Below are positions 41,100 through 58,537 of a DNA stretch of 64,000 nucleotides, in pieces (the first letter of the stretch is position 1; each line of letters begins with the position of its first letter). The notes beneath the pieces were generated by a model that searched no databases, had not been told where the DNA came from, and worked only from the letters and a program-made list of their open reading frames with translations. Source of the stretch: Streptomyces sp. NBC_01233. GTDB lineage: Bacteria > Actinomycetota > Actinomycetes > Streptomycetales > Streptomycetaceae. The stretch lies in NCBI RefSeq assembly GCF_035989305.1, contig NZ_CP108514.1, positions 5,436,501 through 5,500,500 on the forward strand, given 5' to 3'. Position numbers and translations under genes: made by a program.

Positions 41100-42176
41100 T
41101 CAGCCGACGACGGTCCAGGTGTCGTTGCCGCTCAGCAGCGCACCGAGGTCGCCCTTGCCGCTGCGGTCGATCGCGGTGTCGAGCTGGTCGGCCATGAGGG
41201 TGTCGTACACGGGCCGCTCGACGCTGCGGAACACCCCGATCGGGGTGTGGTGCAAGGTGTCGGGGTCGGCCAGGCGGGAGAGCGCGAACGCCGTGGTGGC
41301 GCTGGCGGTCTTCGCGTCGTGGACCAGGATCTGCGACTCGTTGGCCGGGGTGACGTCGACGACCTCCAGGTCGCCGGTGGCCGGGTTGCGCACGACGCCC
41401 TTCGCGCCGTCCGCGCCGAAGCGGATCGGCCGGCCCTCCTCCAGCCGGATCACGGCCTCCAGTGCCTGGTCCTTGTCCTTGAGGACCTCGAAGGCGCCGT
41501 CGTTGAAGATGTTGCAGTTCTGGTAGATCTCGACGAGCGCCGTGCCCTGGTGGTCGGCCGCCGCGCGCAGCACCTCGGTGAGGTGCTTGCGGTCGGAGTC
41601 GACGGTACGGGCGACGAAGGAGGCCTCGGCGCCGATCGCCAGCGACACCGGGTTGAAGGGCGAGTCCAGCGAGCCCATCGGCGTGGACTTGGTGATCTTG
41701 CCGACCTCGGAGGTGGGGGAGTACTGCCCCTTGGTCAGCCCGTAGATCCGGTTGTTGAACAGCAGGATCTTGAGGTTGACGTTGCGGCGCAGGGCGTGGA
41801 TCAGGTGGTTGCCGCCGATGGAGAGCGCGTCGCCGTCGCCCGTCACGACCCATACGGACAGGTCGCGGCGGGAGGTGGCGAGGCCGGTGGCGATGGCGGG
41901 CGCACGGCCGTGGATGGAGTGCATTCCGTACGTGTTCATGTAGTACGGGAAGCGGGAGGAGCAGCCGATGCCGGAGACGAAGACGATGTTCTCCTTCGCC
42001 AGCCCCAGTTCGGGCATGAAGCCCTGAACGGCGGCGAGCACGGCGTAGTCGCCGCAGCCCGGGCACCAGCGGACCTCCTGGTCCGACTTGAAGTCCTTCA
42101 TCGACTGCTTGGACTCGGACTTGGGCACCAGCGAAAGCAGTGTGCGGGACCCTTCGGTCACGGTCACCTCAGTCAT
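41100..42176 (-). CDS. korB: 2-oxoacid:ferredoxin oxidoreductase, beta subunit
   Basis: KorB is the thiamine-diphosphate subunit of an enzyme that decarboxylates 2-oxoglutarate (or another 2-oxoacid) to the acyl-CoA and reduces ferredoxin. The 358-residue protein has the [4Fe-4S] ligands C38 and C41 (RWCPGCGDY), C72 (GIGCSS) and C221 (NCNIF), and the ThDP/Mg motif GDGDALSIGGNH (113-124) with ILLFNNRIYGLTKGQYSPT. Its start overlaps the korA stop by 8 bases. No ferredoxin gene is in the window; the neighbouring nuo2 operon is a possible electron acceptor (hypothesis). Confidence 0.95.
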   Translation of the reverse strand: MTEVTVTEGSRTLLSLVPKSESKQSMKDFKSDQEVRWCPGCGDYAVLAAVQGFMPELGLAKENIVFVSGIGCSSRFPYYMNTYGMHSIHGRAPAIATGLATSRRDLSVWVVTGDGDALSIGGNHLIHALRRNVNLKILLFNNRIYGLTKGQYSPTSEVGKITKSTPMGSLDSPFNPVSLAIGAEASFVARTVDSDRKHLTEVLRAAADHQGTALVEIYQNCNIFNDGAFEVLKDKDQALEAVIRLEEGRPIRFGADGAKGVVRNPATGDLEVVDVTPANESQILVHDAKTASATTAFALSRLADPDTLHHTPIGVFRSVERPVYDTLMADQLDTAIDRSGKGDLGALLSGNDTWTVVG

Positions 42177-56999: not shown

Positions 57000-58537
57000 C
57001 GGCCCTGACGGTCCTCTCCGCCGAGACCCCCAGCCTGGTCCAGTCCGTCGACTGGCTCGCCATCGCGCCCGTGGTGATCACTGCCGCCGTCGGCCTGCTC
57101 GTCCTCGTGGCCGACCTCTTCGTGTCCGAGCGCCACAAGCCGCTCCTCGGCTGGATCTCGGTCGCCGGCCTGGCAGCCGCGACGGCCACCCTGCTGCCGC
57201 TGCGCGCCGGCGACCGCACCACCTTCTGCCTCACCAACGACCCCGCGGCCTGCAGCTACGCCGCCGACCACTTCGCGCTCGTCATCCAGTTCCTGGTGCT
57301 GGCCGGAGCCCTGGTCACCGCCCTGCTGTCGGTCACGGCCGTCCGCGACACGCCCATGCCCGCCGGAGAGTACTGGTTTCTGCTGCTCTCCTCCGCCGCC
57401 GGCGCGGCCCTACTGCCCGCATCCCGCGACCTCGCCACCCTGATCGTCGCCCTCGAAGTCGCCTCGCTGCCCGCCTTCGCCCTCGTGGGCATGCGGCGCG
57501 GCGACCGCCTCTCCTCCGAGGCCGCCCTCAAGTTCTTCCTGTCCTCCGTCACCGCCACCGCCGTGTCGCTGATGGGCGTCAGCTTCGTCTACGCCGCCAC
57601 CGGCTCCCTGCACCTCACCCAGATCGCCGACCGCCTCGAAGACGTCCCCGGACAGCTCGACACCCTCGCCATGGCCGGCGTCGCGCTCACCCTCGTCGGC
57701 TTCGCCTTCAAGACCGCGGCCGTCCCCTTCCACTTCTGGGTCCCCGACACCTACGTCGGCGCCCCGCTGCCCATCGCCGGCTACCTCTCCGTGATCGGCA
57801 AGGCCGTCGGCTTCACCGGCCTCATCCTCGTCACGGTGATCGCCTTCCCGGCGTACTCCGACATCTGGGGCCCGGCCCTCGCCGTCCTCGCCGCGCTCAC
57901 CATGACCGTGGGCAACGTCGGTGCACTGCGCCAGTCCGCCGACCGCCCGAACAGCGCCGTACGGCTGCTCGCCTGGTCCTCGGTCGGCCAGGCCGGCTAC
58001 CTGCTGGTCCCGATCGCCGCGGCCGCGTACTCCGGCCGCGACCAGATCGGCTCCACCGTCGCCTACGCCCTGATGTACGCCGCCGTGAACCTCGGCGCCT
58101 TCGCCGTGGCCGCCCTCGTCGCCCGTACGAAGCCGCTCCACCGGATCAGCGACTACCGCGGGCTGTACGCCGAGCGCCCGCTGGCCGCCCTCTCGCTGGC
58201 CTTCTTCCTGCTCTGCCTGGCGGGCCTGCCGCCGGGCATCATCGGGCTCTTCGCCAAGGTCACCGTCTTCCGGTCCGCGGTCGACGCGGGCCTGGGCTGG
58301 CTCGCCGTGGTCATGGCGATCAACGTCGTGATCGCCCTGTACTACTACCTGCGGTGGACCGCGCTCCTCTTCCGCGTGCCGGAGGGCGCCGAGGGCTCCG
58401 AGGGTGCGCAGCCCCGTACGAAGGCCCCCTGGCCCGTGACGGCAGCCATCGTCGTCACCGCGATCACCGCGGTCGTCCTCTCAGGCGCCCCGCAGCTGAT
58501 CCTGCGGGTCGCGTCGGGCAGCCTCTTCGCGCAGTAG
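56996..58537 (+). CDS. nuoN2: NADH-quinone oxidoreductase subunit N, second copy
   Basis: This 513-residue NuoN paralogue keeps Glu in VALEVASLPAFALVGMRR and Lys in FAFKTAAVPFHFWVPDTYVG. It is the last gene of the second operon; no obvious terminator follows within 170 bases, so transcripts may run into htpX. ATG at 56996 overlaps nuoM2 by 4 bases. Confidence 0.94.
   Translation: MTALTVLSAETPSLVQSVDWLAIAPVVITAAVGLLVLVADLFVSERHKPLLGWISVAGLAAATATLLPLRAGDRTTFCLTNDPAACSYAADHFALVIQFLVLAGALVTALLSVTAVRDTPMPAGEYWFLLLSSAAGAALLPASRDLATLIVALEVASLPAFALVGMRRGDRLSSEAALKFFLSSVTATAVSLMGVSFVYAATGSLHLTQIADRLEDVPGQLDTLAMAGVALTLVGFAFKTAAVPFHFWVPDTYVGAPLPIAGYLSVIGKAVGFTGLILVTVIAFPAYSDIWGPALAVLAALTMTVGNVGALRQSADRPNSAVRLLAWSSVGQAGYLLVPIAAAAYSGRDQIGSTVAYALMYAAVNLGAFAVAALVARTKPLHRISDYRGLYAERPLAALSLAFFLLCLAGLPPGIIGLFAKVTVFRSAVDAGLGWLAVVMAINVVIALYYYLRWTALLFRVPEGAEGSEGAQPRTKAPWPVTAAIVVTAITAVVLSGAPQLILRVASGSLFAQ

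Follow-up and report, generated by a model that had tools for sequence, protein, structure and literature searches.

How does a complex I-type operon function that encodes the membrane arm and lacks both the NADH-oxidising subunits and NuoD? The question is raised by a 64,000-nucleotide stretch of the Streptomyces sp. NBC_01233 genome (the window; the genome, G000, measures 10.3 Mb). The window contains a complete nuo1 operon at ~12.3–28.3 kb and a second operon, nuo2, whose ten contiguous genes (nuoA2, B2, C2, H2, I2, J2, K2, L2, M2 and N2) occupy positions 48545–58537 on the + strand. Coordinates refer to the window unless they carry a C1, G or L prefix. The operon was described earlier from the letters of the window alone (the sequence-only reading); its genes are arranged head-to-tail, each start overlapping or touching the preceding stop. 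Because the GTG start of nuoH2 (50810) overlaps the stop of nuoC2 (50813), no gene is concealed between the two. The operon contains none of the NADH-module genes E, F and G and so does not have the composition of the 14-subunit NADH:quinone oxidoreductase, which supports the proposal of an alternative complex without NADH module. A dedicated nuoD2 refutes the further proposal that this complex takes its NuoD from the main operon.

A PF00346 search of the genome located a second NuoD outside the window, at G000:C1:5248502-5249644 (−; L004:8003-9145), ~235 kb from nuoA2. The lack of NuoD is thus true of the nuo2 operon in the window, but not of the genome; a separate nuoD2 in the genome was also the finding that the sequence-only reading had itself named as speaking against borrowing. 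NuoD2 has 380 residues, is 40% identical to NuoD1 and scores 375 bits against PRK06075 (cut-off 360), compared with 590 bits for NuoD1 (14003–15343, +). The total is eleven subunits, ten encoded in the operon and D2 elsewhere. Among 121 Streptomyces genomes, 119 have a full nuoD2 and one (G097) has it truncated at the end of a contig; it was not found in G026, an assembly of 1300 contigs. A class sample of 344 genomes contains NuoD2 in at least 133 and NuoH2 in 82, and all 82 NuoH2-positive genomes have NuoD2. Here NuoD2 was called from matches aligned to residue 379 or 380 and scoring down to near 220 bits, so that weaker NuoD2 were missed, and NuoH2 from NuoH matches of at least 387 bits.

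Other lineages carry the gene within the operon. A scan of named genomes gave 585 NuoB-matched loci, of which the best 80, ranked by likeness to the NuoB2 of the reduced loci described below, were fetched. In 27 of these best 80, nuoD2 follows nuoC2 in the same operon; 25 continue to nuoH2, and two contigs end in D2. By title, the 27 comprise 13 Acidimicrobiia, one Egibacteraceae (Nitriliruptoria), two Actinomarina, one doubtful Bifidobacterium metagenome-assembled genome (MAG) and ten unclassified or doubtful MAGs; the doubtful titles are those of L163 (Bifidobacterium breve MAG) and L183 (Acidobacteria MAG). In L124, L152, L168, L176, L178 and L183 the operon directly follows nuoN1. D2 does not lie between C2 and H2 in any of the 23 Streptomycetaceae loci that reach both genes, L128 (Actinobacteria bacterium OK074) being placed in this family by sequence likeness only. 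That nuo2 uses NuoD1 was a natural assumption for a window with no second nuoD. We reject it as extremely improbable in view of the dedicated gene, the operons containing it and the class-specific residues reported below.

NuoD2 is accordingly read as nuo2's own subunit. The simplest history, judged from the outgroup-type loci, would be an ancestral 11-gene operon with nuoD2 between C2 and H2, from which the gene later moved out, with midA nearby. A quick NuoD2 tree, which has long branches, does not resolve 17 of its 44 inner branches and requires three changes of state, gives no settled direction of evolution among the deep branches. In Fodinicola (L145), NuoD2 and MidA matches stand directly behind nuo2. 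This NuoD2 match (L145:18341-19216) is in two pieces, possibly owing to a frameshifted gene or a faulty assembly. Separately, kilobases lie between some of B2, C2, H2 and I2 in Micromonospora, Kribbella and Actinoplanes loci (L108, L109, L105, L111), with other genes seemingly inserted among the nuo2 genes in L108 and L109. Two contigs of G149 (C40 and C63) each hold a NuoH2-type match, of 426 and 387 bits respectively; the second contig is that of nuo1.

A methyltransferase gene, midA, accompanies nuoD2; in the window genome it lies at C1:5253508-5254713, ~3.9 kb from nuoD2. Its product contains a PF02636 domain (49.1 bits, gathering cut-off 23.3), which we take to mark the MidA/NDUFAF7 family. 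MidA and NuoD2 occur together in 118 of the 344 genomes, NuoD2 alone in 15, MidA alone in one (G176) and neither in 210 (MidA called at E < 1e-12, with at most five candidates scored per genome). Where both positions were listed, the two genes share a contig in 89 of 90 genomes; these 89 pairs lie no more than 12 kb apart, and 81 of them no more than 6 kb. MidA also flanks six of the 27 operons that have NuoD2 inside (L124, L162, L166, L168, L169, L176).

The same family name is used for the PF02636 methyltransferase in PMC3829151, where human NDUFAF7 is described as symmetrically dimethylating Arg85 of NDUFS2. By alignment, this residue corresponds to Arg55 of NuoD2. At the equivalent position Thermus has Thr, and Escherichia coli an Arg that is not modified (PMC3750175). 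The nuo2 system resembles NDUFAF7/MidA in two respects: a methyltransferase of PF02636 is present, and an arginine lies near cluster N2 (modelled at ~7 Å in PMC3750175). Whereas dimethylation is reported for mammals, Pichia and Paracoccus (PMC3829151, PMC3750175), that of NuoD2 Arg55 is a prediction, and one that does not extend to NuoD1, which has Thr. On the simplest reading, MidA would serve NuoD2 and not NuoD1.

The predicted target belongs to a residue pair that separates the two classes. Arg55 and Trp78 are present in all 68 NuoD2 read (41 of the 133 in the class sample, and all 27 encoded inside operons), while NuoD1 has Thr and Tyr at the matching positions in 22 of 22 readable sequences, that of the window included; the two-piece NuoD2 of L145 and a cut NuoD1 (L062) were excluded. 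All 120 close homologues listed for the operon-internal Egibacteraceae NuoD2 have the pair as well; these are the best 120 of 8000 candidates scored, all close to the query, and have no bearing on other phyla. Trp78 aligns with Thermus thermophilus (Tth) Tyr87 and bovine Tyr108, presumably the quinone-site tyrosine. The quinone-site His is kept in 39 of the 41 class-sample NuoD2 and the Tyr is replaced by Trp in all 41; on this sample the replacement is no proven defining feature.

The operon itself encodes the other ten subunits. NuoB2 (48967–49554; PF01058, 3.1e-29) aligns with all four N2 cysteines and contains a nuo2-type GGPYWDSY motif, and NuoI2 (51778–52404) has both CxxCxxCxxxCP motifs (N6a/N6b), in agreement with the earlier statement that the cluster cysteines are complete. 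NuoI2 scores 96 bits against TIGR01971 (cut-off 113) and above the cut-off for Fer4, and ends in an Ala-rich tail. NuoL2 (53353–55407; 37% identical to NuoL1), NuoM2 (55404–56999; PF00361, 3.8e-62) and NuoN2 (56996–58537; 37% to NuoN1) retain the Glu/Lys/His motifs of NuoL1, M1 and N1, which we take to be the pump residues, as the sequence-only reading had also noted. The other genes are nuoA2 (48545–48976; PF00507, 3.3e-31), nuoC2 (49551–50813; PF00329, 1e-33, with the 30-kDa domain at residues 31–150), nuoH2 (50810–51778; best NuoH model 302 bits, cut-off 305; 40% identity to NuoH1), nuoJ2 (52401–53000; 32% to NuoJ1, assigned also by gene order) and nuoK2 (53000–53356; 53% to NuoK1). All are on the + strand.

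Taken as a whole, nuo2 is likely to be an enzyme with its own, MidA-methylated NuoD2, a ferredoxin-type donor and menaquinone as acceptor. MidA would most likely methylate Arg55 beside N2 during assembly. NuoI2 would most likely be fed by a low-potential donor in the cytosol, for which ferredoxin, reduced by KorAB or similar 2-oxoacid oxidoreductases, is the probable candidate; electrons would then pass from N6a through N6b and N2 to menaquinone, and the membrane arm would pump. Several observations weigh against this picture. A MidA match was not found in the 15 genomes that have NuoD2 alone, and the stretches fetched for L025, L028 and L040 showed none. Arg55 by itself is not distinctive: in the alignment mitochondrial and E. 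coli NuoD share it, that of E. coli being unmodified (PMC3750175). The operon encodes no donor, and its linkage to korAB is unspecific. A hybrid nuo/nuo2 machinery has been suggested (PMC9239103). Finally, every NuoD2 read has Trp at the quinone-site Tyr position, so that quinone reduction by nuo2 may not be standard.

Some relatives seem to have no membrane arm for this complex. No NuoH2 was listed for 51 of the 133 NuoD2 genomes. The idea that NuoD2 without NuoH2 indicates another NuoD2 partner was dropped when the second-NuoB loci, fetched from 20 of the 51 genomes, gave B2-C2-I2 without membrane arm. One of the 20 loci (L058) is nuo1, L055 and L064 are cut by contig ends, and L057 (G145) shows A2, B2 and C2, then H2-matching fragments, then I2. 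The remaining 16 contain B2, C2 and I2 with no match to A2 or H2, and none to J–N on the I2 side, where L046–L049, L051 and L062 have less than 2.5 kb of sequence. For most of these genomes one NuoH is listed, as expected for nuo1. The four cysteines are kept in all 18 B2 and the eight in all 17 I2 of the reduced set, as is GGPYWDSY; Arg55/Trp78 is kept in all 19 NuoD2 read from NuoH2-less genomes, and the reduced loci usually also have MidA. The NuoB PRQAD stretch has decayed in most reduced loci (partly kept in L046 and L048, largely in L055, L056 and L057), and several show changes in the GPQHPSTHG loop of NuoD.

In the NuoD2 tree, full-length relatives surround G134 and G254, and likewise G145, a placement that suggests loss of the membrane arm in these genomes. 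The ratio of nonsynonymous to synonymous substitution rates (dN/dS) between G134 and G254 is ~0.19 for D2, 0.26 for B2, 0.18 for C2 and 0.06 for korA, and more distant pairs give ratios of the corresponding proportions of differences (pN/pS) of 0.16–0.53. By these measures the genes of the reduced form look to be under purifying selection. Flanking genes common to reduced and Streptomyces loci include what are presumably a polyprenyl synthetase (8/17 loci), a YajQ-like (14/17) and an HtpX-like gene (5/17). The reduced module might dock on the membrane arm of nuo1, but this explanation is weakened by the decay of the quinone-pocket and loop motifs in most reduced loci.

We tentatively propose that in some actinobacteria the NuoB2/C2/D2/I2 Q-module may be a MidA-matured iron–sulphur (FeS) enzyme that has neither its own membrane arm nor its own NADH module, passing electrons from 2-oxoacid:ferredoxin metabolism via N2 to a probably non-quinone acceptor, with Streptomyces nuo2 as the same core still coupled to the pump. 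If true, this would mean that complex I can lose its pump and still retain the core that transfers electrons. A related but distinct alternative has the same composition as our preferred explanation and differs from it on the acceptor: the B2-C2-D2-I2 core would transfer electrons from N2 to a partner other than menaquinone throughout, the membrane arm being an optional coupling device. The Trp in every NuoD2 would fit this, as would the membrane-less loci, which keep the FeS cysteines while PRQAD stretch and loop decay in most of the older cases, and which show low dN/dS after loss of the membrane arm. Both motifs are, however, conserved in full-length loci, an indication that the quinone pocket is functional in these, and they are largely kept in the recently reduced L055, L056 and L057 and partly in L046 and L048. 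We regard a non-menaquinone acceptor as possible but rather doubtful.

The proposed donor can be weighed through korAB. In the window, korB, the 2-oxoacid:acceptor oxidoreductase beta subunit gene (41100–42176, −; PF02775 above cut-off; PRK11866 258 bits and TIGR02177 248 bits, both below cut-off), adjoins korA, encoding the alpha subunit (42169–44193, −, start codon uncertain; TIGR03710 655 bits, above cut-off). A KorA match is present in 263 of the 344 genomes. Of 119 NuoB-bearing loci, 55 have korA upstream, as do 46 of the 63 with at least 8 kb of upstream sequence when the 27 NuoD2-inside loci are left aside; it was found upstream of none of these 27, 16 of which have at least 8 kb upstream. 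Among the 31 genomes without listed NuoD2 in which both NuoH and KorA positions were available, korA lies 11.7–32.7 kb from nuoH1 in 24 and on a different contig in seven. The linkage is therefore at least partly an inherited neighbourhood, and korAB adjacency was rejected as proof of the donor. Ferredoxin feeding through KorAB is nonetheless plausible. The donor of 11-subunit enzymes is posed as an open question in PMC11238625, and PMC2773412, in its account of Mycobacterium tuberculosis KorAB, identifies no acceptor; together these make a KorAB–nuo2 pairing attractive. As side observations, five reduced loci of f14 (L045, L046, L048, L049, L050) carry another conserved protein gene in korAB's place beside B2-C2-I2. 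The f14 loci also have a gene after I2 that is presumably CorA-like.

An F420H2-fed enzyme like methanogen Fpo/Fqo is improbable. NuoD2 does match the FpoD model, but its 311 bits are far below the cut-off of 600. No protein of FrhB_FdhB_C (PF04432), which we take to be the family of the FpoF-type input subunit, was found in the window genome, and hence no FpoF/FqoF-type subunit by this search; a control search was positive in three of 14 genomes. As to an NADH module elsewhere, the genome-wide search covered NuoF, with NuoE and NuoG judged at the operon: PF01512 matched nuoF1 and one other NuoF-type long frame (G000:C1:8735253-8735723), 3.2 Mb from nuo2.

It has also been suggested that nuo2 subunits act with the main enzyme (PMC3765725, PMC9239103). 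On this account L2, M2 and others would mainly swap as isoforms into the NADH-type complex, like cyanobacterial antiporter subunits. Against it, nuo2 comes with B, C, D, I and H subunits that belong to it alone, other lineages have complete 11-subunit operons, and G224 has a single NuoD, a single NuoH and a single NuoB match, all of nuo2 type, from which we infer that the nuo2 complex may stand alone. Swapping is possible under some conditions, but unlikely to be the main role of nuo2.

Cyanobacterial NDH-1 is a complex I-like enzyme with extra subunits for ferredoxin. Nuo2 would share its donor and has a similar complex I-like make-up, but no counterparts of the extra ferredoxin subunits were identified among the nuo2 subunits. 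Ferredoxin use by NDH-1 is mentioned in PMC11238625, which describes 11-subunit complex I-type enzymes that, like nuo2, have no NADH module, keep the membrane and Q modules and have ferredoxin as proposed donor. Unlike these, nuo2 coexists with a full 14-subunit enzyme in the same genome, has NuoD2 encoded apart and coupled to MidA, and has Trp at the quinone Tyr position. In Streptomyces the same locus is known as SCO4599–4608 with a separate nuoD2 (PMC3765725, PMC8388888, PMC9239103), the latter in print since 2013 (PMC3765725; also PMC8388888). Two of the gene lists given in these three papers omit nuoC2, which is here in the operon; PMC9239103 states NuoCDEFG and L to be absent, whereas we find both C2 and L2 in the operon, and a nuoD2 in the genome. 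The same paper calls the function of nuo2 unclear. Our literature search, with most subscription journals outside its coverage, returned no report of an actinobacterial MidA–NuoD2 link, a NuoD2-inside operon or a membrane-less form. New and testable are the coupling of MidA to NuoD2, together with the residue signature, and the B2-C2-D2-I2 form that has no membrane arm. Nuo2 gains a full subunit list, and subunit borrowing is no longer needed. The predicted maturation step can be tested in a genetically tractable genus, where NuoD1, with Thr at the same site, is a natural control in the same cell. The results also bear on two matters raised above: which donor feeds 11-subunit enzymes (PMC11238625), and to what mycobacterial KorAB passes its electrons (PMC2773412).

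Next to nuo2 lies a two-component system, on the opposite strand and divergent: two histidine kinases (Sensor, HisKA_3 and HATPase_c domains) in the positions of AbrC1 (47240–~48403, −, start approximate) and AbrC2 (45413–46723, −), and a response regulator (Response_reg and GerE; 44264–44971, −) in that of AbrC3 (SCO4596). Both this set and korAB had been placed directly upstream of nuo2; the set does adjoin nuoA2, but korA and korB lie beyond it. The set accompanies nuo2 in 27 of 29 Streptomycetaceae loci (of the two without it, one has just 294 bases upstream) and in two of 90 other loci (one weak, one 7.6 kb away), so that the linkage is almost confined to Streptomycetaceae. That it switches nuo2 on, as the sequence-only reading proposed, is a hypothesis. 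In S. coelicolor, AbrC1/C2/C3 are SCO4598–4596, divergent from SCO4599–4608 (PMC9739823). PMC9739842 presents AbrC3 as an antibiotic-production regulator that also has targets in primary metabolism.

Pfam domains were found in A2, B2, C2, I2, M2, KorA, KorB, the response regulator and both kinases, several model scores being below cut-off. The long tail of NuoC2 (~245 residues; 50080–50810) is rich in Pro, Ala and Arg and contains near-identical repeats; a docking role for it would be a guess. Past the end of korB, at ~40950–41100, the same peptides appear in several frames, suggesting short head-to-tail DNA repeats.

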